Assembly (NCBI GenBank): GCA_021801265.1 | Contig: JAJYYE010000001.1 | Coordinates: 558,001 to 622,000, forward strand | Length of the DNA: 64,000 nucleotides | Direction: 5' to 3' | Origin: Pseudomonadota bacterium | GTDB lineage: Bacteria; Pseudomonadota; Gammaproteobacteria; Halothiobacillales; Halothiobacillaceae | Part shown: positions 23,811 through 34,642 of the stretch, one piece after another | Layout: each line of letters begins with the position of its first letter | Position numbering within the stretch: position 1 is the first letter of the stretch | Notes under the pieces: generated by a model | What the model was told of the DNA's origin: nothing | Seen by the model: only the letters and a program-made list of their open reading frames with translations | Databases searched by the model: none | Made by a program: the position numbers and the translations under genes

Positions 23811-25711
23811 GGCGCGCTGCCCTGTGATCCGGCGGAGGGAACGGTGGGCCGTGTTGTGGGCGACTCATCAGACAGCGCGGGGCGGTGGTATGGCTGTTGT
23901 CCCAGCAGGCCATCGAGCAGCGGGGTGGGCGCATCCACAATGAGGTTCAGTTTGGCGCGGGCGCTGGTGGCCGTTCCTTCGTTCAAAACAAAGGGCGTGG
24001 TGGGCGCGCTGGCAGGGGCAGTCACCTCCGCCGTGCCTTGGGTGGCGCCGCTCGATTTTTGGATTTCTTGATCCATCTGGCTTTTGCTTGGGTCTTGATA
24101 ATAGCCGTAGGTGGCCGCCTGATAACCTTGAAATTTTTGGCCATTTTCGCTGTTTCTTGCCGCTGTTTGCCGCATTTTTTGCAAAATATCGCGGTTAATC
24201 AATGCGGCATCGCTTAGGGCCTGCGGCAGGGATTTTATCGATACCACTTGATTAAACGCATCGAGCGCGGCGGGGTAGCGCCCGGCCATGGTTAACGCGT
24301 TGCCGAGGTTAAACACAGCCAGAGCCGATTGCATGGGTGTTGGCGCCTGCCACACCGCCACTTGGAGTTGATCAACCGCATACGCGTAATCCGCTCGCCG
24401 AAACGCCGCCATACCCGCCCCCAATCGGGCATCAAAACCCTTGGCGGCGGCAAAGGCCACTTGTGCCTCGGCGTAATTACCCCGCTGCAAGGCGGTATCG
24501 CCTGTTTGAATTTGCTTTTGATTCAGGCTGTGATTCAACCAAGCCTGCGATTCTGCCGCATTCGCCGGCGGCGGCTGGAGTAAACCGATGCTTAGCGTTA
24601 CCCCAAAAGCCAGCCCCAGCGTTGACGAAGCCACACGAGTGCCCCCCCCGCGCCACAACAACAAGACGCCCGCCGTGAGCAGGCAGAGCCAAGCCAAAAG
24701 TAACGGCAAGGCATAGAGCGAGCGGGTTTGGGTCGCCGCATTCATTTGGGGTGGTCGATTCGGCAGGGCATCAATCGCTTTTTGAATGTCGGTCACATCG
24801 GTGGGCAGGGTGCGGGTTTGTGCGGCAAAACCGCCCGTGAGCCGCGCCAGTTCGGCCACCCGTTCGGGGGCGGGGATGCTTTCGATGATTTGTTCTTCAG
24901 CCGTTTTCATCGGCAGCCCGGCTTTGAGCAGTGGACCGCCGTTGCCTGCCACGGTGAGCGCGATTAAGCGAATATCAGCCTTTTTAAGTGCCTCGGCGGC
25001 CGCCAACTGCCGACTACCCAGCTCGCCGGTGAAGCTCGCCGCATCGCCACTCGTGAGCCACACCACCGCGCCCCCGTACATCGGCGGCATTTGCGCAATC
25101 CATTCAAAAGCCGCATCGGGGCGGGGCGCCACCAAGGGATGTTGCAACGCCCCGATTTGATTGAGGAAAAACGGCAATAAGGTGGGATCAGCGGCGGGGG
25201 GAAGCAGCAAGCCTGCCGTATCGGTTTCGATCATCAACCCCAGCCGCCGATCCGGCAGGGCTTTGGCGAGTAGGCCGACCAGCGCCACGGCGCGGGCTTG
25301 GCGATTGGGGCTCACATCGGCAACGCTCATGGCGGCCGTGGTATCCACCAAAAATAGCACCGGCGGGCGGGTCTGGATTTGATCGTTCGCCGCTTTGGGC
25401 ACGCGTGGATCGGCCAAACTGAAAGTTAAGCCAAGCCAAAACCCCACCATCAGCCCCCACAGGACGCGCCGCCGCCAAGCCGATTCCTGTTGGCTTTGAC
25501 GCACCAACGCCCAGGGGCGCAACGCTGCATCGGCGTAATGCAGCAATCGTTGCCGAGCATTGAGCCGCCACGCGAGTAGCACCAGCGGCAACACAAGCAG
25601 GAGCAACCACCTAGGCTCGGCTAGCTGCGGCCAAGTCAGCGGTGTCTGGGAAAGCCACACGGCGACATCGTGCAAGCCGAGAACAGAAAAGATCGCCGCC
25701 AGCGGATTCAT
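23807..25711 (-). CDS. VWA-TPR membrane protein (BatB/BatC-like fusion) with degenerate MIDAS
   Basis: 634 residues. Two N-terminal transmembrane segments (about residues 34-50, 84-100) precede a von Willebrand A domain (about 117-310). Further hydrophobic segments (about 335-385) lead to tetratricopeptide-like repeats (about 400-500, for example D-T-A-L-Q-R-G-N-Y-A-E-A-Q) and a low-complexity Ser/Thr/Ala tail. The metal-binding D-x-S-x-S motif is replaced by D-T-T-A-A (from D123), so metal-dependent ligand binding may be altered. It looks like the BatB and BatC functions in one chain. Starts and stops overlap neighbours by ATGA. Confidence 0.78.
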   Translation of the reverse strand: MNPLAAIFSVLGLHDVAVWLSQTPLTWPQLAEPRWLLLLVLPLVLLAWRLNARQRLLHYADAALRPWALVRQSQQESAWRRRVLWGLMVGFWLGLTFSLADPRVPKAANDQIQTRPPVLFLVDTTAAMSVADVSPNRQARAVALVGLLAKALPDRRLGLMIETDTAGLLLPPAADPTLLPFFLNQIGALQHPLVAPRPDAAFEWIAQMPPMYGGAVVWLTSGDAASFTGELGSRQLAAAEALKKADIRLIALTVAGNGGPLLKAGLPMKTAEEQIIESIPAPERVAELARLTGGFAAQTRTLPTDVTDIQKAIDALPNRPPQMNAATQTRSLYALPLLLAWLCLLTAGVLLLWRGGGTRVASSTLGLAFGVTLSIGLLQPPPANAAESQAWLNHSLNQKQIQTGDTALQRGNYAEAQVAFAAAKGFDARLGAGMAAFRRADYAYAVDQLQVAVWQAPTPMQSALAVFNLGNALTMAGRYPAALDAFNQVVSIKSLPQALSDAALINRDILQKMRQTAARNSENGQKFQGYQAATYGYYQDPSKSQMDQEIQKSSGATQGTAEVTAPASAPTTPFVLNEGTATSARAKLNLIVDAPTPLLDGLLGQQPYHRPALSDESPTTRPTVPSAGSQGSAP

Positions 25712-26685
25712 GCGCTGCTCCCTTGCTCGCGCTGCAACAGGGCTTGCGCCAGTAGCATCAACCCGGCGGCCAAAATTAGCCAGAGGCCAAAGAGGGGCAT
25801 ATGGCGGCGCTCCGTCGGCAGGGCGCTGTGCGGCGTTTCACTCAAGGCAATTTGATCGGTCACTACGTGCATGGCCGCAATATCCCCCGCCAAAATAGGC
25901 TTGCCTCCGGTTAAATCGGCCAGTTGTGCGAGGCTTGGTTGGCCATCATCCGGTATGCTGCCCTTGGGGGCCAGGTTTACGGTAAAAACATGAATGTTAT
26001 ACGCGCGCGCCATCGCCAGTGCCTCGGCAGGCGTCATGAGGCCGCCCGTGCTAAAACCATCGGTCCAGACCACCAGCAACGGCGCAGGTTGCCCCGCCTG
26101 ACTGTGCGCACTGATGGTGCGAATCGCCATCGCCAGCCCATCACCCAAGGCGGTATCACTGCCGTTAATGCCCGCGCGCAGTTGGTTCACCCAGTAATCG
26201 AGCACGGCATGATCGTGCGTCATCGGGATTAATGTACCCGCCGAATCGGTGACGACAATCACCGAAAACCGGTCCTGCGGGCGGGCGTTGATAAAGCGCA
26301 GCAACCCCTGCTTCATGGCATCGATGCGAGCGATAAATTGTCCCTTCTCGGCGGGAAAATCTTCCGCCTGCATGCTGGGGCTGGCATCCACCACGAGCAA
26401 AATCGACCGCGCGGGCGGCAGTGCAGGTATCCAGTCGCCTTCCCAGATGGGGTTACTCAACCCGATCACCAGCGCGGCGAACGCGCCCAACCATAAAAAT
26501 GGCACGAAACGGCTGATGCGGGCGGGCGGGCCTAGGGGGATATCGGTGCCATCGATGAGCGGATGGCGCAACATCATCGCCGTCGGCCGCCTGGCAAGAT
26601 ACCGCTTGAGCGGCATAATGAGCCAGGGTAACGGCAATAGCGCCAGCAGCCACCCAGGTGAAGTCAGCACGAGCGGCCAGTTCAT
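25708..26685 (-). CDS. VWA-domain membrane protein (BatA-like)
   Basis: 325 residues. Transmembrane helices lie at about residues 8-25 and 60-79, then a von Willebrand A domain with an intact MIDAS D-A-S-P-S (100-104) and the later T-D-G-F loop, and a C-terminal transmembrane helix (about 297-315). BatA-type proteins are inner-membrane partners of MoxR ATPases. The ATG at 26685 overlaps the DUF4381 stop (ATGA); a longer reading frame from 26835 lies within that gene and is not used. Confidence 0.85.
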   Translation of the reverse strand: MNWPLVLTSPGWLLALLPLPWLIMPLKRYLARRPTAMMLRHPLIDGTDIPLGPPARISRFVPFLWLGAFAALVIGLSNPIWEGDWIPALPPARSILLVVDASPSMQAEDFPAEKGQFIARIDAMKQGLLRFINARPQDRFSVIVVTDSAGTLIPMTHDHAVLDYWVNQLRAGINGSDTALGDGLAMAIRTISAHSQAGQPAPLLVVWTDGFSTGGLMTPAEALAMARAYNIHVFTVNLAPKGSIPDDGQPSLAQLADLTGGKPILAGDIAAMHVVTDQIALSETPHSALPTERRHMPLFGLWLILAAGLMLLAQALLQREQGSSA

Positions 26686-27209
26686 GAGGAAACCGCCTTG
26701 GGCGCAGCATTTGATGCCGAGTCGGCAATCCGCGTTTGCACCCACAGGGCCGACAGCAGCGCCTGCCAATCGGCAACATCCGCTTGCGCAGAGCCGAATC
26801 GCAAGGTATCCAACGTGGCGATATGAGCCTGCCAAGCCAAGGGCAGCCCCCGTCGATCGACTGCGGGGTACATCTTGAAATAGCGCGCAAGCGCCCCCAT
26901 CAAGGCGGCGCCGACCGGCTCGGGGAGCATCTGTGGTTCGCGCGTCATCACGCGTCGCAACCGATTAATTTGCCAGCGCAAAATAATGCCTCGCCAATTT
27001 CGCCACAGATAAAAACCGCCCCAGCCCAGCAAGATCAGCAGCACGGTACCTACAGCAACCCATTCGCCATGGGTGTGCAGCGCGGCGGTCATGGCGTGTT
27101 GGAATTGCTCTGCGGCGGGCGGCGGCATATTCATCCACACATCCACCAAGCCTTTGGGCGCGGCTTCGGGCAGGCCGCCCGGCGGATGCATGAGCCAGTC
27201 AGCATTCAT
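26682..27209 (-). CDS. DUF4381-family membrane protein
   Basis: 175 residues with a single transmembrane helix (about 50-68, V-A-V-G-T-V-L-L-I-L-L-G-W-G) followed by an Arg-rich cytoplasmic segment and a helical domain. Its position between DUF58 and VWA genes, and its size, fit DUF4381. No enzymatic motif is visible. It overlaps its neighbours by 4 bases on each side. Confidence 0.75.
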   Translation of the reverse strand: MNADWLMHPPGGLPEAAPKGLVDVWMNMPPPAAEQFQHAMTAALHTHGEWVAVGTVLLILLGWGGFYLWRNWRGIILRWQINRLRRVMTREPQMLPEPVGAALMGALARYFKMYPAVDRRGLPLAWQAHIATLDTLRFGSAQADVADWQALLSALWVQTRIADSASNAAPKAVSS

Positions 27210-28210
27210 GCGGCCTGCACGCCTTGGCCGGTCATCACCAGCTCTGTCAATTGTGGGAGCAAATCCGTCAATTCGGTTGTGGTGTCAATCACATCCGATA
27301 AACCACCAACGGCAAGGCTGAATGCCCTGATTGCGCGCTGGCGCTCGGCAAAACGGGTGGCCAGTTCTGCCCGAATTGCGGGATCGTGGGTATCGAGCCG
27401 TTGCGACCGTTTGGGCGGCGTGGCGGCGAAAGTGACCGTGCCTAAATCGGGCAGCGCCCGTTCGGCGGAGTCGGCCACCGGCAACAGCATGAGTCGGTGC
27501 TTTTGTGCCAATGGCAACCAGCCCATCAGGTTGTGATCTTCGGTGAAATCCGAGTAAAAATCGCCAATTACGATGAGCAACTGCCCTGCAGCCATACACC
27601 CTTGCAGTCGCTGGCGAAAGCCCATCCAGTCGATGGGCTGCGGCGTGGCGGGGTGCGCCAGCATGGCTTCGATGCCATGCAATTGATCGAGCAGCGCGGC
27701 GCGGCTGGTGCTGGGGTGGCGGGCGGGGCGGGCGGGCAAACCCGGCGTATGCACGGACACCGCCAAATTTTGATGCAGGGCAGCGGCGGTCAATACATGC
27801 GCGACTGTGAGTGCCTGGGTGATTTTGAGCTGCCGACGGGTGCCGAAAAACATCGTTGCGCTGGTGTCGAGCACGATATGACATTGACGCTGCGCCGGTT
27901 CGCGGAAAATACGCACCATCGGTTCGGTGGTGCGCGCAGAAATGCGCCAGTCAATCAATTGCGCCGGTTCACCGGGCTGGTAGGCGCGCAATAACTCAAA
28001 ATCCATGCCTTGCCCGAGTCGTTGCGCGCGTTGATCGCCGGGCAATAACACGGCCACCGGTAGATTTTCTGCCATCAATGGGGGCAATTGCCCGCCCAAG
28101 CGCCAAGCCTGCTCAACCGCTTCGGCTTGTGGCGCAATACCCTGCGCGGGCGTCTGCACCGCAGGGTGGTTGGCGCGCCGGAATAAAAGCGGGGAAAGAA
28201 ACGGCCACAT
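27206..28210 (-). CDS. DUF58-family protein
   Basis: 334-residue cytoplasmic protein. The DUF58 signature Y-Q-P-G-E-P-A-Q-L-I-D-W-R-I-S-A-R-T (about residues 76-93) is present, followed by a VWA-like fold with D-T-S-A-T-M (about 114-119), which is an intact D-x-S-x-T metal site. DUF58 proteins accompany MoxR ATPases almost invariably and are thought to act as adaptors. It begins 5 bases after moxR. Confidence 0.88.
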   Translation of the reverse strand: MWPFLSPLLFRRANHPAVQTPAQGIAPQAEAVEQAWRLGGQLPPLMAENLPVAVLLPGDQRAQRLGQGMDFELLRAYQPGEPAQLIDWRISARTTEPMVRIFREPAQRQCHIVLDTSATMFFGTRRQLKITQALTVAHVLTAAALHQNLAVSVHTPGLPARPARHPSTSRAALLDQLHGIEAMLAHPATPQPIDWMGFRQRLQGCMAAGQLLIVIGDFYSDFTEDHNLMGWLPLAQKHRLMLLPVADSAERALPDLGTVTFAATPPKRSQRLDTHDPAIRAELATRFAERQRAIRAFSLAVGGLSDVIDTTTELTDLLPQLTELVMTGQGVQAA

Positions 28211-28215
28211 CGTGC

Positions 28216-29187
28216 TTACGGCAGCGCAATTTCGGCACAGAGCCGACCAATAATCTGATCGCGGCTGATGCCCGAAACCAGTGCCTTGGGGCTTAAAATT
28301 AGCCGGTGGCGCAGCACGTCGCCCGCGAGTGTTAATAAATCATCCGGCACAATAAAATCCCGATTGTTCAACCAGGCCAAGGCCTGCGCCGATTGTACCC
28401 AAGCCAGCGCACCGCGCGGGGATGCCCCCACCAGCACCAGTCCCGCCAAAGATTCGAGTGATGGCGCGGCCTTTTCGGGTGCGCGCGTGGCGGCAACCAC
28501 ATCCACCACCCAATGCTGTAAAGCGAGATCACAGTGCACGCGCCGCACTTCGCTGCGGGCATCCAAAACTTCATCCACGGTCAGGCCTGTGGAGTCTTCA
28601 TCATTCGCCTCGCCCAAGGTGCCTGCCAGCGTGCGCGACAGGATGTCGTATTCATCTTGTCGTTCGGGATAGGTGAGCGACACATGCAGCATGAAGCGGT
28701 CGAGCTGCGCTTCGGGCAAGGGGTAGGTGCCGGATTGCTCCAGGGGATTTTGCGTCGCCATCACCAAAAATAGCGCGGGCAGCTTGCGGCTTTCGCCCGC
28801 TACCGTCACTTGCCGTTCGGCCATGGCCTCCAGCAGCGCCGATTGCACCTTGGCGGGCGCACGATTGATTTCATCGGCAAGGATGATTTCGTTAAATAGC
28901 GGCCCCGGTGCAAACGAAAACGTGCGGGTTTCGGGGTGATACATCTCGTTGCCCAGCAAATCGGCGGGCAACAAGTCGGGCGTGAATTGCACTCGCTTGA
29001 AGCGGGCATGCACGCCGTCAGCCAAGGCCTTCACTGCGGTGGTTTTGGCCAAACCAGGCAGACCCTCGACCAATAAATGCCCGCCCGTTAACAGTGCAAT
29101 CAACAGACGATCGACTAAATCGCGTTGGCCCACAATGTGTCGCGCTAAATGTGTGCGCAAGGTTTGAATTGAGGTTCGTTCAGTCAT
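28216..29187 (-). CDS. MoxR-family AAA+ ATPase
   Basis: 323 residues. Walker A is in E-G-L-P-G-L-A-K-T-T (41-50), Walker B in I-I-L-A-D-E-I-N-R-A (about 102-111), and sensor 1 in A-T-Q-N-P (about 142-146). The MoxR family AAA core (AAA_3) and C-terminal lid are complete. MoxR proteins remodel partner proteins, often inserting metals or activating enzyme complexes together with VWA proteins. The ATG overlaps the ArsR-rhodanese stop by 8 bases, so translation is coupled to the regulator. Confidence 0.93.
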   Translation of the reverse strand: MTERTSIQTLRTHLARHIVGQRDLVDRLLIALLTGGHLLVEGLPGLAKTTAVKALADGVHARFKRVQFTPDLLPADLLGNEMYHPETRTFSFAPGPLFNEIILADEINRAPAKVQSALLEAMAERQVTVAGESRKLPALFLVMATQNPLEQSGTYPLPEAQLDRFMLHVSLTYPERQDEYDILSRTLAGTLGEANDEDSTGLTVDEVLDARSEVRRVHCDLALQHWVVDVVAATRAPEKAAPSLESLAGLVLVGASPRGALAWVQSAQALAWLNNRDFIVPDDLLTLAGDVLRHRLILSPKALVSGISRDQIIGRLCAEIALP

Positions 29188-29860
29188 GGGTGAGTTCCAG
29201 CGGTGTGTGTTCAGTTTCTATGGGATGCCCGGCTTGTTTCCACTCTGGGAACCCCGCCTCCAACCGTCGCGCCGAAAAGCCTTCCGCTCGAAGCAGCGCC
29301 ACCGCCTCGAACGAAAACGTACAGTACGGTCCCCGGCAATAGGCAATCACTTCACGGCTCGGGTCGAGCATGGCGATTTTTTCTCGAAGCCGCTCGGCGC
29401 TGATATTCACCGCACCCGGCACATGCCCTGCGGCATATTCCTCCGGTGGGCGCACATCCAGAACCGTCACCAATCCCGACCATGCACGCGCCAATAACTC
29501 TTCAGCAGAAACCGGTTCCAGGCCATCGCGGCGGGTTAAGTGCATCGACACCATCTCGCGCACTTCCGCCAGATGGCGCTCCGCCAAACCGCGCAACACG
29601 GTCATGAGCGCAATCACTTCATTATCGGCCAATTGATAAAAAATCTGCTTGCCATGGCGTTCGGCACGCACCAACCCGGCTTGCTGCATTTTCTGTAAAT
29701 GCTGCGAGGTATTCGCCACTGACAATCCACTCACCGTAGCGAGTTGCTCGACCGACCGCGCGCCCTGAGCAAGGTAATCAAGTAATTCCAGCCGCCGACC
29801 ACTACCCAGCACCTTGCCCATGCGCGCAAATTGATTGTTCAAATCTTGTTTGAAAGCCAT
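29180..29860 (-). CDS. ArsR-family transcription regulator fused to a rhodanese domain
   Basis: 226 residues. An N-terminal winged helix of the ArsR/SmtB type (about residues 12-95; recognition region S-G-L-S-V-A-N-T-S-Q-H-L) is joined to a rhodanese domain (about 117-218; D-V-R-P-P-E-E-Y). The active loop is C-R-G-P-Y-C (C175 and C180). These are the only cysteines, so sulfane sulfur or sulfide would be sensed in the rhodanese part. The ATG at 29860 has GAGGG 7 bases before it; a TTG at 29896 lies inside the palindromic operator and is less likely. The operator at 29888-29913 predicts self-control. Confidence 0.9.
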   Translation of the reverse strand: MAFKQDLNNQFARMGKVLGSGRRLELLDYLAQGARSVEQLATVSGLSVANTSQHLQKMQQAGLVRAERHGKQIFYQLADNEVIALMTVLRGLAERHLAEVREMVSMHLTRRDGLEPVSAEELLARAWSGLVTVLDVRPPEEYAAGHVPGAVNISAERLREKIAMLDPSREVIAYCRGPYCTFSFEAVALLRAEGFSARRLEAGFPEWKQAGHPIETEHTPLELTHD

Positions 29861-29887: not shown

Positions 29888-29913
29888 TTCATTCAATCAT
29901 GTTATTGAATGAA
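29888..29913. promoter_or_regulatory. Palindromic operator at the ArsR-rhodanese promoter
   Basis: Perfect 10-base arms TTCATTCAAT and ATTGAATGAA around a 6-base centre. On the minus strand a TTGACT -35 hexamer (rc of 29915-29920) lies just upstream, with the palindrome filling the space to the -10 region. A protein bound here would block transcription of the ArsR-rhodanese gene. The same design occurs at 33291-33312. Confidence 0.75.
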
Positions 29914-29937
29914 CAGTCAAGCACCATGCACCGTTAT

Positions 29938-30579
29938 TTACGGCGCGACAGGCAAATCCGCCTGCCGATGCGCGCGCAACTCGTCGCGTGCCTGGCGCAC
30001 AATCGAAATGCCCGCAGAAATCGCCAAGCCCGCCATGATGAACGCTACAGCTAAATCCGGCCAGCGGCTGTGGGTGCCGAATACGCCCATCGCCGCCAGC
30101 AACACCGCCACATTGCCAATGGCATCGTTACGGCTGCACAGCCACACCGAACGCATGTTGGCATCGCCATCGCGGAAGGCATAAAGCAGCCACGCCACAC
30201 CGGCGTTCGAGAGCAAGGCCAGCACCGCCACTACGCCCATCGTGATCGGCTCTGGCGCTGTGCCGTAAACACCCGACCACAGCGCGTGCCCGGCAATAAA
30301 CACCCCAAATACCAGCATCGATACGCCTTTCACCCAAGCCGCCTTGGCGCGCACCGCCAAACCCATCGAGAGCACCGCAAGTGAAATGCCGTAGTTGGCG
30401 GCATCACTCGCAAAATCGACCGAATCGGCCAGTAGTGAGACCGACCCCGCCTGCACACCGCCGATAATTTCGATGGCAAACATGGCTGCATTCACCCACA
30501 ACGCAATCCACAATGCCTTGCGATAACGCGGGCTCGCCGTTGATACCACTGAACAACCCGAGTCACAGCAACCGGCCAT
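29938..30579 (-). CDS. CDF-type cation efflux protein
   Basis: 213-residue membrane protein of the cation diffusion facilitator family in its short form without the C-terminal cytoplasmic domain. The N-terminus is cysteine-rich (C-C-D-S-G-C). Family positions are seen in L-L-A-D-S-V-D-F-A-S-D (about residues 50-60) and S-R-N-D-A-I-G-N (about 149-156). It exports a divalent metal in exchange for protons. AGGAGA precedes the ATG. It is divergent from a CadR/PbrR-like regulator and has a MerR-type promoter, so lead, cadmium or zinc are the likely substrates. Confidence 0.85.
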   Translation of the reverse strand: MAGCCDSGCSVVSTASPRYRKALWIALWVNAAMFAIEIIGGVQAGSVSLLADSVDFASDAANYGISLAVLSMGLAVRAKAAWVKGVSMLVFGVFIAGHALWSGVYGTAPEPITMGVVAVLALLSNAGVAWLLYAFRDGDANMRSVWLCSRNDAIGNVAVLLAAMGVFGTHSRWPDLAVAFIMAGLAISAGISIVRQARDELRAHRQADLPVAP

Positions 30580-30611
30580 GATGTTCTCCTACCTGATTTA
30601 AATGAGTGTTC

Positions 30612-30642
30612 ATTAAAAACCCCGTAGCCACTTCAGGGTCAA
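30612..30642 (-). promoter_or_regulatory. MerR-type (CadR/PbrR) promoter of the CDF gene
   Basis: Minus-strand -35 TTGACC (30637-30642) and -10 TTTAAT (30612-30617) are separated by 19 bases, the over-long spacer that MerR regulators untwist. Between them is the dyad ACCCTGAAGTG...GGGGT (30619-30639), close to the CadR/PbrR operator as I remember it. It controls the CDF gene and lies beside the regulator gene. Confidence 0.78.
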
Positions 30643-30679
30643 GCAATTAAAATCGATGCACTTGAGCACGGAGAAAAAC

Positions 30680-31135
30680 ATGAACCCGAGATTGCGTATT
30701 GGCGAGCTGGCCATCCAGTGCGGTGTGGCGCTGGAAACGATTCGATATTATGAAAAAGTAGGCTTACTGCCCGAGCCCATGCGTGAGGCCAATGGTTATC
30801 GCGTGTATGGTCAAGGGCATGTCGAGCAGCTCGCTTTTATTCGTCATTGCCGCGCCTTGGATATGTCGCTGGCCGATATTCACGCCCTGCGCCAATTTGC
30901 CACTCAGCCGAGTGGTGATTGTGGCGAGATTGATCAACTGATTGAAACGCACCTGGCGCGGGTACATGAGCGACTCACGAGCCTGCAAAATTTAGAGCGC
31001 CAATTGCTGACGCTCCGCGCGACCTGCGCCTCGGGGCGGTGTGTGCAGGAATGCGGCATTTTGCATGAGTTGGTGGCCGCCGCGCAGGGCGATGGTTGCG
31101 TGTGTCATACCGACGATACGCCGGGGAACAATTAA
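30680..31135 (+). CDS. MerR-family metal regulator, CadR/PbrR type
   Basis: 151 residues. A MerR winged helix (I-G-E-L-A...T-I-R-Y-Y-E-K-V-G-L-L, residues 7-30) is followed by a dimerisation helix and a metal loop. Cysteines 81, 116, 121 and 125 match the CadR/PbrR pattern for Cd(II)/Pb(II)/Zn(II), and extra cysteines at 140 and 142 make a Cys-rich tail. The ATG at 30680 has GGAG 6 bases upstream. Its stop shares bases with the converging YeeE/YedE gene. Confidence 0.88.
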   Translation: MNPRLRIGELAIQCGVALETIRYYEKVGLLPEPMREANGYRVYGQGHVEQLAFIRHCRALDMSLADIHALRQFATQPSGDCGEIDQLIETHLARVHERLTSLQNLERQLLTLRATCASGRCVQECGILHELVAAAQGDGCVCHTDDTPGNN

Positions 31136-32247
31136 CCCCCGCAATCGGTGGCGCAGCGCGCGCCGGCATTATCCCAACGCAAGGCAAGCCACGCGCCCAC
31201 CATAATCGCCCCCAACGCGACGAACGAGCCGAGCGCCAAGGTTGAAATACCGCTCAACCCATGCCCCACGGTGCAGCCCATGGCCAGCACGCTGCCCCCG
31301 CCGACCATCACGGAACCGATGATTGTGCGGCTCCATTCGCGCACGGTAGTGGGCAATACCAGCCCGAATTCCCGCCGAATCGCGGTGCTAATCAGGCTGC
31401 CCAGCAGCAACCCAAACACCGCCACTACGCCAAAGGTAATATCCGAGAAATGTGTGGGATGCTGCAAAAAATACACCACATCGCCCATCGGTGCGCTGAA
31501 GGTAAACGATTGCGTGCCCAAGCCTTCCTGCGGGCTATTGGCCATCTCGGATGCCGATTGCGCCGCCTGCCCCAAGTTGCCGCCCGTGACGCCAAACGCC
31601 AAGCCCACCACCGAGCCGATTAACACCGCGCCGAGCCAGCCCACCCAGTTTTTGCGCAGCGGCAACCAGCGCCAAGCCGCGAACAGCAAGCCTGCGGCAA
31701 TTACCACTGCCATGATGCGATAGGTGAGCGTGCCGCCACCGACGATGCTCGCCAAATCCTGATGGGCAATGCCCCAATGCGTTAAGTTCACACTCAGCAT
31801 TCCCACCCACGGCGCGAACGCCACCGAGAACAACTCCGTGCGCGTCATCGCGTAAGCACTCAAAGCCATCACGATTAACGCCACCAACGCCTGCACATTC
31901 CCTTGGGTAAATTTAACGAGGCTGCGCACCGGACAACCACGCGCCAGCACCATACCCACACCAAAAATAAGCCCACCCAAAATATACCGCCCCCAGGCAA
32001 AATCGGGTGTGCGGTAGGGTGTTTTGGTTTGATTCAAATCCACCCCGGTCCATGCCTGCACCGCGAGGGTGGCCAAAATTGCGACCCCAATCGCCCCAAG
32101 ATAGACGGCAAAACGGCGGCCATCGCGCGCGGTTTGCATCGATGACAACCCACCGACCAAACAAAAGCGCGCAAACTGCGCGGCCAAGCCAAATACCACG
32201 GACAAAGCCAGAATGGTGAGTAAATACGACTGAATAACGGGATCCAT
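31132..32247 (-). CDS. YeeE/YedE-family sulfur-compound transporter (TsuA-like)
   Basis: 371-residue polytopic inner-membrane protein. Conserved cysteines sit in three repeats: R-F-C-L-V-G-G (near residue 29), R-G-C-P-V-R-S-L (about 107-114) and M-G-C-T-V-G-H-G-L-S-G (about 328-338). In TsuA such cysteines relay thiosulfate across the membrane. The protein ends in another cysteine-containing tail. AGGAGGGG precedes the ATG at 32247. Upstream lies the MBL-fold enzyme gene on the same strand (199-base gap), so both may be under the 33291-33312 operator. Confidence 0.87.
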   Translation of the reverse strand: MDPVIQSYLLTILALSVVFGLAAQFARFCLVGGLSSMQTARDGRRFAVYLGAIGVAILATLAVQAWTGVDLNQTKTPYRTPDFAWGRYILGGLIFGVGMVLARGCPVRSLVKFTQGNVQALVALIVMALSAYAMTRTELFSVAFAPWVGMLSVNLTHWGIAHQDLASIVGGGTLTYRIMAVVIAAGLLFAAWRWLPLRKNWVGWLGAVLIGSVVGLAFGVTGGNLGQAAQSASEMANSPQEGLGTQSFTFSAPMGDVVYFLQHPTHFSDITFGVVAVFGLLLGSLISTAIRREFGLVLPTTVREWSRTIIGSVMVGGGSVLAMGCTVGHGLSGISTLALGSFVALGAIMVGAWLALRWDNAGARCATDCGG

Positions 32248-32314
32248 AATCCCCTCCTGAACTATTATTTTAAAAAGCACTGTACCCATCCGCTGCCGCG
32301 CGTTGCCAAAGGCA

Positions 32315-32410
32315 GGGATTTATCCCCGATGCGGACTTCAGCCGCTTTGCACTGGGATTGATCGGGGCGCCACGTCCTTCGTTTCGCACCGCGTCGGGGT
32401 TAAAACCCCG
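32315..32410. repeat. Two short palindromes between the MBL-enzyme and YeeE/YedE genes
   Basis: GGGAT-TT-ATCCC (32315-32326) and CGGGGT-TAAA-ACCCCG followed by CCTAC (32395-32415). They resemble other short G/C palindromes at 19691, 43666 and 51334. They may be transcription attenuators within the gene pair or remnants of a small dispersed repeat. Confidence 0.5.
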
Positions 32411-32445
32411 CCTACAAAATGATACGCCCCGGCTTTTCCCGCGTT

Positions 32446-33180
32446 TTACATTGCCCGCCCGGTATTGGCGCGCACGATCATCTGCATTTCCTCAACTTCA
32501 GGCAGCACGGCATCGCGCACTTGGGCGACAAAATCTTCGCGCTTGCCGATCAAACTGCGATTAAATTTTTTCTCAAAGCCGATGGTCGAGCACGGCTTGC
32601 CGCTGATGCCGCCGCCGCACACACTGCCTGCCTGCGCGCCGGGCAGGATTTCGAGATAGTCCGGCTGGCTCAAAATACGGCCAAATATTGAATCATAGAG
32701 TTTTTCGGCCATCTCGGTGGCGCGGCCATGCAAATCGGGCCGCCCCACACCACCTACAAACAGCGTGTGGCCGGTCAGCATGAACCACGGCGCATCGCCA
32801 CGGGAGTGATCTGTCACCGCTAAACAAATGCTGTCGTCGGTGTGTCCCGGCGTGTGGATAACCTGTGCCGAGACATTCCCCACCCGCAAAATCTGACCAT
32901 CGCCCAAAGGCAAAAATTCAAACGGCAAACCCTGGTCACTGTCGTGTAAACCATATTCCGCCCCAGCCAATTCAGCCAAACGCCGCCCGCCGGACACATG
33001 ATCGGCATGAATATGGGTGTCAATCACATAGCGAATGCGCACCCCGCGCTGTTCGGCCATGGTCATGAACGTTGCCTCATCCCCTGCATGCACATCCACT
33101 GCGATGGCCAATCCTTGACCCGCACAACCAAACAAATAGGCCAATGAAGATTTGGCACAGGCAACTTGCTCAAGAAACAT
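32446..33180 (-). CDS. Metallo-beta-lactamase-fold enzyme, persulfide-dioxygenase-like (BLH type)
   Basis: 244 residues. The metal motif T-H-I-H-A-D-H (55-61) and P-G-H-T-D-D-S (111-117) match ETHE1/BLH enzymes, which oxidise glutathione persulfide to sulfite with Fe(II). In place of the ETHE1 Asp ligand (T-G-D-A-L) the sequence has T-G-H-T-L (H138). The usual P-A-H-D-Y is P-G-A-Q before G-S-V-C-G-G-G-I-S-G-K-P. From memory these variants also occur in BLH proteins encoded beside ArsR-type regulators. GGGAGA precedes the ATG at 33180. The operator at 33291-33312 is about 110 bases upstream. Confidence 0.82.
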   Translation of the reverse strand: MFLEQVACAKSSLAYLFGCAGQGLAIAVDVHAGDEATFMTMAEQRGVRIRYVIDTHIHADHVSGGRRLAELAGAEYGLHDSDQGLPFEFLPLGDGQILRVGNVSAQVIHTPGHTDDSICLAVTDHSRGDAPWFMLTGHTLFVGGVGRPDLHGRATEMAEKLYDSIFGRILSQPDYLEILPGAQAGSVCGGGISGKPCSTIGFEKKFNRSLIGKREDFVAQVRDAVLPEVEEMQMIVRANTGRAM

Positions 33181-33290
33181 GATTCGTTCTCCCAAAAATT
33201 TGGACATAAAACGCAAAAAACAACCCAGAGCACAGGGATAAAACACGCCGGGGTACACGGGGAAACGTGACTCTGCGCGGCTCGTTTTGT

Positions 33291-33312
33291 CATTCAATCA
33301 TTTAATTGAATG
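33291..33312. promoter_or_regulatory. Palindromic operator between the divergent MBL-enzyme and MFS genes
   Basis: Arms CATTCAAT and ATTGAATG around 6 bases, nearly identical to the operator at 29888-29913. The shared context extends outward (T before the left arm, AGTCAAG after the right arm), giving a minus-strand TTGACT -35 at the same distance. On the plus strand TACTAT (33331-33336) may be the -10 of the MFS promoter. Binding here could control both genes. Confidence 0.72.
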
Positions 33313-33364
33313 TTTAGTCAAGTCCCGGCATACTATTCCTGTCTTATTTTTTTGGAGCCACCTC

Positions 33365-34642
33365 ATGTCTCAGTCCGTTTTGAATCCCGTGCACGGCATT
33401 CGTGCGAATTGGCCACAATTCGTGCTGCACTTAGCGCAAGTATTTTTTGTCGGTGCCACTGTCGGCATGACGCGCACGGTATTGCCCGTGCTGGCTGAAA
33501 CCGATTTCGGCCTTGCGGCCCATTCCTTTCTCGCCCTCAGTACGTTTGTCATCGTATTTGGCCTGGTGAAATCGTTGCTGAACTTAGTTGCGGGCGGGCT
33601 CAGTGACCGCTGGGGGCGCAAGCGGGTATTGGTATTCGGTTGGCTCGCGGCTATCCCAATTCCGTTTCTGATTTTGTTCGGGCAAAGCTGGGGCTGGATT
33701 ATTCTGGCCACGGTATTTTTGGGCATTAATCAAGGATTGGCATGGTCGATGGCGCTCAATAGCAAGCTGGATCTGACGCGCGCCGAACAACGTGGACTCG
33801 TCAATGGCCTTAACGAGTTTGCCGGTTATGTGGGCGTGGCGCTGGCGGGTGTACTCGCGGCATTTTTGGCGCACTGGATCGGCGCGCGCATGGGGCTGTT
33901 CTGGTTTTCTCTGGCCGTCATTAGTGTGGCACTGACACTCGGACTCTGGGTTGTTCGAGAAACACGGCCATGGGCATTAGCGCATCTTTCACAGGCGCCA
34001 GAGGCCGCAAAAAAATCCAAACCGCGAACCCTGCGGGATGTCTTTTGGCAGGCCAGCGTCAAGCATCCGGGCTTGCTCGCGTTGAATCAGGCGGGCCTTG
34101 TCGAAAAATTTACCGATTCGATTGTGTGGCTGTTTTTCCCGATCTTCTTTTTGGCTCATGGCATGAGCTTGGCGGCAGCCGGATCTTTGATCGCGATTTA
34201 TGGCGTGACCTGGGGTGCGGGGCAACTCATCACCGGGCCGTTATCCGATAAAATCGGCCGCAAAATCCTGATTGTGGGTGGCATGTGGCTGTGCGGTGTG
34301 GGTGTTTTGGCGGTGAGTTTCACGGATTCGGTGGTGTTGTGGAGTATCGAACTGGCACTCATCGGCACGGGTATGGCGATGCTCTACCCCACGCTTGGCG
34401 CGGCGGTGGCGGATTTAACTGTGCCCGCTGAACGCGCTTCCGTATTGGGTGTGTATCGTTTCTGGCGCGATTTAGGCTATGCCGTGGGGGGGCTCTGTTT
34501 AGGCTTGGCCGCACAAATGAGTGGCAATCTCACCCTGCCATTCTGGCTCGTGGCTGTCGCAATGTTTCTATCCGGGCTGTACCTCTGGCTCAAACTGGCG
34601 CCACCGCCAACCGATTCGCCTCAAGTCATTGCTCCACAGTAA
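33365..34642 (+). CDS. MFS transporter of the putative sulfur regulon
   Basis: 425-residue twelve-helix major facilitator. The loop motif G-G-L-S-D-R-W-G-R-K-R (about residues 76-86) and its second-half counterpart G-P-L-S-D-K-I-G-R-K are intact. The substrate is unknown. Its sharing of an operator with a persulfide-dioxygenase-like enzyme suggests export or import of a sulfur compound such as sulfite or thiosulfate. GGAG lies 8 bases before the ATG at 33365; the longer reading frame from 33287 runs through the operator and is rejected. Confidence 0.85.
   Translation: MSQSVLNPVHGIRANWPQFVLHLAQVFFVGATVGMTRTVLPVLAETDFGLAAHSFLALSTFVIVFGLVKSLLNLVAGGLSDRWGRKRVLVFGWLAAIPIPFLILFGQSWGWIILATVFLGINQGLAWSMALNSKLDLTRAEQRGLVNGLNEFAGYVGVALAGVLAAFLAHWIGARMGLFWFSLAVISVALTLGLWVVRETRPWALAHLSQAPEAAKKSKPRTLRDVFWQASVKHPGLLALNQAGLVEKFTDSIVWLFFPIFFLAHGMSLAAAGSLIAIYGVTWGAGQLITGPLSDKIGRKILIVGGMWLCGVGVLAVSFTDSVVLWSIELALIGTGMAMLYPTLGAAVADLTVPAERASVLGVYRFWRDLGYAVGGLCLGLAAQMSGNLTLPFWLVAVAMFLSGLYLWLKLAPPPTDSPQVIAPQ

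Follow-up and report, generated by a model that had tools for sequence, protein, structure and literature searches.

Which protein reads a pair of matching palindromes, and in response to what signal, is the question raised by a 64,000 nt stretch of a Halothiobacillaceae genome (assembly GCA_021801265.1, contig JAJYYE010000001.1, positions 558,001 to 622,000), hereafter the window and numbered from its first letter. One palindrome lies at the promoter of a gene encoding an ArsR winged helix fused to a rhodanese domain. The other lies between the gene of a metallo-beta-lactamase (MBL)-fold enzyme, followed by a YeeE/YedE-type transporter gene, and a divergent major facilitator superfamily (MFS) gene. 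A preliminary description had located the two sites in this way, which proved right, and had proposed a regulator of the BigR/SqrR kind, which did not. We consider it likely, from the sequence comparisons below, that the palindromes are operators of the ArsR-rhodanese protein and that sulfane sulfur induces the genes they control through the rhodanese active site.

Two exact palindromes overlap promoters and are unique in the genome

The two palindromes have equal arms around a 6-base centre, exactly as described earlier, and share the 22-bp pattern CATTCAAT-N6-ATTGAATG, within which ATTC and GAAT are separated by N12. The second site had been positioned correctly (33291-33312), while the interval reported for the first, 29888-29913, was 2 bp too wide on each side (29890-29911); if the flanking T/A at 29889 and 29912 are counted, operator 1 becomes a 24-bp perfect dyad. 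The flanking AGTCAA, reported to give a TTGACT hexamer on the minus strand, was seen at both sites (Table 1). Operator 1 occupies the spacer between the -35 and -10 elements of the regulator promoter and extends to the -10. At operator 2, 17 nt separate the conserved CATACT from a TTGAAT that lies within the operator; this single site would thus cover both divergent promoters, MBL and MFS. CATACT is conserved in the genus; the candidate MFS promoter (33306..33334) is absent from the listing of a simple sigma-70 scan.

Scanning the whole genome (2.66 Mb) with the shared pattern, a check proposed in the preliminary description, returned only these two palindromes at 0-2 mismatches, both with 0 mismatches, and hence neither scatter nor further regulon targets at this level. 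With equal base frequencies about 0.7 matches with at most 2 mismatches are expected genome-wide, and by simple arithmetic an exact 16-base match about 0.0006 times. The remaining 13 genome matches all had 3 mismatches, and a reversed control pattern gave five matches in total. The weight rests on exactness and genome-wide uniqueness; a loose search of the window alone is unimpressive, as 7 of 100 shuffles give two or more matches at the 3-mismatch level. No Rfam match to an RNA element was obtained at the operators.

The operator accompanies the ArsR-rhodanese gene across families

Of the 27 genomes of the order, 21 encode an ortholog of the regulator with at least 60% identity, and a similar palindrome (a 22-mer with a score of 13 or more out of 16) was present at the regulator, MBL, YeeE or MFS promoter in all 21 regulator-bearing Halothiobacillaceae genomes. 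This placement was kept although the gene order is reshuffled among relatives (MFS/MBL-YeeE-regulator, regulator/MFS, regulator/MBL-MFS, regulator-YeeE/MBL and others). All 20 sites with at most 1 mismatch in the 27 genomes were situated at promoters of these four genes, compared to 0 for the reversed control; the off-cluster sites with 2 mismatches in other genomes were singletons, and those checked lacked recurrent neighbours. The six genomes without the regulator, three of which are incomplete assemblies, contained no site with at most 1 mismatch. In many relatives a -35 element CTTGAC(A/T/C) lies about 3 bases upstream of the operator, towards the regulator or MBL gene; the operator therefore fills the -35/-10 spacer. 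One relative encodes a second ArsR-rhodanese paralog (40% identity; locus L133, G019:C65) before MoxR, with the variant perfect operator CATTCCAA-N6-TTGGAATG, and also holds the main regulator with MBL-YeeE-MFS.

Outside the family, orthologs with 54-63% identity from more distantly related Gammaproteobacteria, Betaproteobacteria and Magnetococcales were compared. In the majority of them, TATTCAA-N8-TTGAATA or a sequence very similar to it precedes the aligned start by about 60 bp. The core TTCAA-N8-TTGAA occurred in 60 of 102 regulator upstream regions, and any other spacing from 3 to 13 in 0-3. Searching 50 distant genomes that encode the regulator, about 165 Mb in total, returned 31 exact TATTCAA-N8-TTGAATA sites, against about 0.6 on a naive expectation and 0 for the control: 28 sites lie at regulator promoters, 2 before TauE/SafE sulfite exporter genes and 1 before a fatty acid (FA)-hydroxylase gene. 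At the distant loci scanned, the divergent neighbour of the regulator encodes an FA-hydroxylase-family protein. At L038:678-7862, which was read gene by gene, it is followed by genes for VTT-rhodanese, TauE, DsrE, an AegA/NapH-like flavoprotein and a HAO/HDH-like multiheme cytochrome; similar clusters lie divergent from the regulator at other distant loci. In a third setting, an ArsR-rhodanese homologue adjoins an MBL-MFS unit in 9 of 11 other genomes of the class, with an ArsR-domain match in a tenth. Many carriers of the regulator are named sulfur oxidizers (Halothiobacillus, Sedimenticola, Thiogranum, Sulfuritalea, Endoriftia).

In some homologues the recognition helix VANTSQHL is replaced by VKLASAHL, VKLTSAHL or IKLASAHL. 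Such proteins are accompanied by altered arms in the same 22-bp layout, namely CATTCCAA..TTGGAATG (L133, L230) and CATTCTAA..TTAGAATG (L232); no clear palindrome was found at the variant-helix loci L231 and L233. Although the examples are few, this co-variation of operator and recognition helix speaks for direct recognition of the site by the fused ArsR domain. The operator is thus a defined, genome-unique element that tracks the regulator and its targets and varies with the recognition helix. Binding by the ArsR-rhodanese protein and, as judged from the operator position, repression by promoter occlusion are very probable.

The regulator differs from BigR/SqrR sulfur sensors

The predicted regulator scored above the cut-offs of two ArsR models (PF01022, 38.7 bits, cut-off 22; NF033788, 71.8 bits, cut-off 55), its winged-helix fold matches CzrA, SmtB and SqrR, and a rhodanese domain follows at residues 118-209 (PF00581, 64.8 bits). 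The ATG at 29860 agrees with the ortholog starts; a longer reading frame from TTG 29896 is unlikely, as its start would fall inside the operator. The rhodanese pair C175/C180 (CRGPxC) is invariant in 101 of 101 homologs and comprises their sole invariant cysteines. Among the N-terminal 100 residues of the same homologs, 78 proteins have no cysteine, 23 have one and 0 have two; the regulator of the window has none. Metal sensing by the ArsR domain, through cysteines in alpha3/alpha3N or a D/H...H arrangement in alpha5, was rejected since no ligands are conserved there (H96 is present in 32 of 45 sequences, without a conserved second histidine).

Two cysteines within the ArsR domain are the defining feature of the BigR/SqrR group (PMC12423496, PMC10451225), and the site deduced for SqrR is ATTC-N8-GAAT (PMC9774250). 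With BigR, SqrR, YgaV, SoxR and sHdrR the regulator shares the character of an ArsR winged-helix repressor of sulfide/persulfide genes (PDO, YeeE/SoxT, TauE, rhodanese) and ATTC...GAAT half-sites overlapping the promoter. In contrast to these proteins, its winged helix lacks a conserved cysteine, and sensing cysteines, if any, would reside in the fused rhodanese domain. In addition, it failed the NCBIfam BigR equivalog model (40.5 bits, cut-off 155), and its half-sites are 4 bp further apart than those of SqrR (N12 versus N8). Cysteines, score and operator spacing together indicate that the regulator works in the same field as BigR/SqrR but outside that group, contrary to the earlier assignment.

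Other named relatives are also partial. Of the named ArsR subfamilies, TsoR (NF045707) scored highest apart from the generic one (53.4 bits, below the cut-off of 115), but its model is 99 positions long and so, unlike the regulator, without a rhodanese domain. The structure model of the regulator has a mean pLDDT of 88, and no solved structure among the best matches spans both domains. The nearest solved winged helix is that of Mb0332 of Mycobacterium bovis (42% identity over residues ~6-98; TM-score 0.80-0.90 to 2kko/3gw2), determined as the fragment 1-100 only. Mb0332 is the ortholog of M. tuberculosis Rv0324, also an ArsR-rhodanese protein. Rv0324 has been described as an ArsR regulator with a link to bedaquiline tolerance (PMC9480834). 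The papers found give neither an operator nor a ligand of Rv0324/Mb0332, and no published characterization of an ArsR-rhodanese regulator was found in open-licence literature, which is weak evidence of absence.

Predicted target genes and their surroundings

The features of the locus are listed in Table 1.

Table 1. Operators, promoter elements and genes of the locus, in window positions.
Feature	Positions	Strand	Remarks
Operator 1, CATTCAATCATGTTATTGAATG = CATTCAAT-CATGTT-ATTGAATG	29890..29911		At regulator gene promoter; exact match, same placement in relatives
Operator 2, CATTCAATCATTTAATTGAATG = CATTCAAT-CATTTA-ATTGAATG	33291..33312		Divergent MBL/MFS intergenic region; conserved in relatives
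-35 hexamer TTGACT, regulator promoter	29915..29920	-	AGTCAA on plus strand; 3 nt upstream of operator 1
-35 hexamer TTGACT, MBL promoter	33316..33321	-	3 nt upstream of operator 2
Candidate MFS promoter	33306..33334	+	TTGAAT in right operator arm, 17 nt, CATACT; deduced from conservation
Regulator	29180..29860	-	ArsR winged helix (residues ~1-100) and rhodanese domain (~115-215), active site C175-R-G-P-Y-C180
MBL-fold enzyme, persulfide-dioxygenase/CstB-like	32446..33180	-	H56, H58, D60, H61, H113, H138; TGH replaces TGD
YeeE/YedE (TsuA-like) putative thiosulfate/sulfur transporter	31132..32247	-	Downstream of MBL
REP-like repeat, GTAGGCGGGGTT..AACCCCG	32290..32440		Between MBL and YeeE
MFS transporter	33365..34642	+	Divergent from MBL; operator-linked in relatives
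MoxR-type AAA ATPase	28216..29187	-	Start and regulator stop overlap by 8 bp (ATGACTGA); heads MoxR-DUF58-VWA operon
DUF58 protein, small membrane protein, VWA protein	25708..28210	-	Remaining co-directional operon

The earlier proposal of a regulon comprising the regulator, the enzyme and both transporters very probably holds for the regulator, MBL and MFS genes, is less certain for YeeE, and had overlooked the MoxR-DUF58-VWA genes. In a close relative (G014) the gap between MBL and YeeE measures 82 bp, and no REP-like repeat was seen in it. Here it measures 198 bp and contains such a repeat, of which the genome has eight further, partial copies. Because of this gap, co-transcription of YeeE is less certain here than in relatives, although the MBL-YeeE operon is probably ancestral. 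On the other side, the 8-bp overlap with the regulator gene suggests that the MoxR-DUF58-VWA operon is probably co-transcribed with it and thus belongs to the regulon; the same genes are found behind the regulator at most loci of the Halothiobacillaceae. The names of the DUF58, small membrane and VWA proteins are putative, by homology.

The description of the MBL enzyme as persulfide-dioxygenase-like was borne out for fold and family but not for a metal-ligand residue. Its closest fold and sequence relatives are the MBL domains of persulfide dioxygenase (PDO)/CstB proteins, with best matches to CstB/persulfide dioxygenase-rhodanese proteins (3r2u, 3tp9, ETHE1; 31-33% identity). Unlike these, it has no fused rhodanese domain, and in its clade TGD has become TGH and the late GH has become GAQ. 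The 2-His-1-Asp iron site with the TGD aspartate was not found: TGH is present in all full-length Halothiobacillaceae copies aligned, with H56, H113 and H138 invariant. Since the TGD aspartate, an iron ligand in ETHE1, is a histidine here, the clade may have a 3-His metal site. Wherever both motifs are readable in distant homologues (L224-L234), the pairs are TGD/GH and TGH/GAQ, which looks like a coordinated ligand swap. TGH with GAQ occurs in Halothiobacillaceae, L224 and L226, and TGD with the late GH in most distant homologues; L234 has TGH. The AlphaFold model is poor around the loop following TGH.

The YeeE protein matched PF04143 (Sulf_transp) with 166.8 bits. It belongs to the same family as the TsuA/YeeE thiosulfate transporters of solved structure (6leo, 8j4c), and its three Cys-containing motifs line up with those of 6leo; it differs from TsuA in scoring below the equivalog cut-off (90 of 400 bits).

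A CDF cation exporter gene and a divergent gene for a CadR/PbrR-type MerR regulator lie at 29938-31135, between YeeE and the regulator, and occur there, among the genomes compared, only in this species and its close relatives G014 and G016. They were rejected as regulon members, being absent from this position in G018 and most relatives.

Proposed mechanism and alternative explanations

Without inducer, a dimer of the regulator would sit on CATTCAAT-N6-ATTGAATG between the -35 and -10 elements, excluding RNA polymerase from the regulator promoter and with it, via read-through, from the overlapping MoxR-DUF58-VWA genes, and would also block the divergent MBL(-YeeE)/MFS promoters. A rise in sulfane sulfur (persulfide, polysulfide or thiosulfate-derived persulfide) would lead to persulfidation or bridging of C175-R-G-P-Y-C180, and the modified rhodanese site would alter the fused winged-helix dimer so that DNA is released. 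Release would then switch on the genes of both transporters, the MFS protein and the YeeE/TsuA-like carrier of sulfur anions, and of the persulfide-dioxygenase-like MBL enzyme. A small sulfur regulon is well supported by the distribution of the operator, and its gene content points to reactive or oxidized sulfur. That the signal is sulfane sulfur is suggested by domains and gene content, and that the rhodanese pair senses it by C175/C180 being the only invariant cysteines; this part of the mechanism we regard as fairly likely.

Several observations weigh against this reading. The assignment of the sites rests on co-occurrence, and in principle another factor that always accompanies the regulator could bind them. 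In some relatives (e.g. G012, G019) the regulator gene closes an MBL-YeeE-regulator unit and has no operator of its own; autoregulation at such loci would run via the MBL promoter. The rhodanese domain might be a working sulfurtransferase rather than a sensor, and for three of the gene types involved, FA-hydroxylase, MFS and MoxR, a connection with sulfur is not established.

The last point also speaks for the likeliest of the alternatives, in which operators and regulon are correct but the signal is another one: the rhodanese CxxxxC motif would serve as a plain thiol-disulfide redox switch, or would report a different rhodanese ligand, for example an oxyanion, selenium or cyanide species. Such a close cysteine pair could form a disulfide, and the related sulfur sensor SoxR also responds to oxidation by disulfide formation (PMC10451225). 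However, the targets are repeatedly sulfur transporters and enzymes (PDO-like MBL, YeeE, TauE, VTT-rhodanese, DsrE) and many carriers oxidize sulfur, which makes a different signal unlikely.

A second explanation is that another ArsR protein binds the palindromes and the ArsR-rhodanese protein is a mere target. Four ArsR-type HTH matches were found in the genome; one is BigR-like and has cysteines where that group typically has them. This gene (G000:C8:507311-507640), about 80 kb from the operators, reached 75.7 bits on the BigR model (cut-off 155), and is probably the conventional dithiol sulfur sensor of the genome. But no similar palindrome was found around it, the SqrR site has N8 rather than N12 between ATTC and GAAT, and in four genera as well as in distant families the operator goes together with the ArsR-rhodanese gene, changing where the recognition helix of that protein changes. 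Control by such a protein is therefore very improbable. The BigR/SqrR-like gene (RLKILCVL..EVFCPF) is followed by rhodanese, glutaredoxin-like and thioredoxin-like genes (L171:1812-3747, G000:C8).

Finally, chance palindromes or structural repeats (terminators, a mobile repeat) can practically be dismissed, since, common as intergenic palindromes and loose matches in window shuffles are, both sites match exactly, with no match at 1-2 mismatches elsewhere in the genome and no Rfam family, and phylogenetic footprinting contradicts this explanation, the promoter position being kept in 21 genomes and distant families.

Implications for sulfur sensing

Known ArsR-type sulfur sensors read persulfides via two winged-helix cysteines. 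The large family described here, present in sulfur-oxidizing bacteria including tubeworm symbionts, lacks this dithiol and combines an invariant rhodanese CRGPxC motif with a sharply defined operator. We lean, if only slightly, towards a widespread class of one-component reactive-sulfur sensors in which the rhodanese active site would sense the signal, with an operator code of its own that co-varies with the recognition helix, and which would control a PDO-like enzyme whose 2-His-1-Asp site has become a 3-His site in one clade. The analysis also draws attention to the exchanged metal ligand of an MBL enzyme and to a MoxR-VWA operon tied to a sulfur signal. Altogether, it provides a ready regulon prediction, a sequence code by which targets can be sought in further genomes, and a simple way to test whether an enzyme domain has turned into a sulfur sensor.

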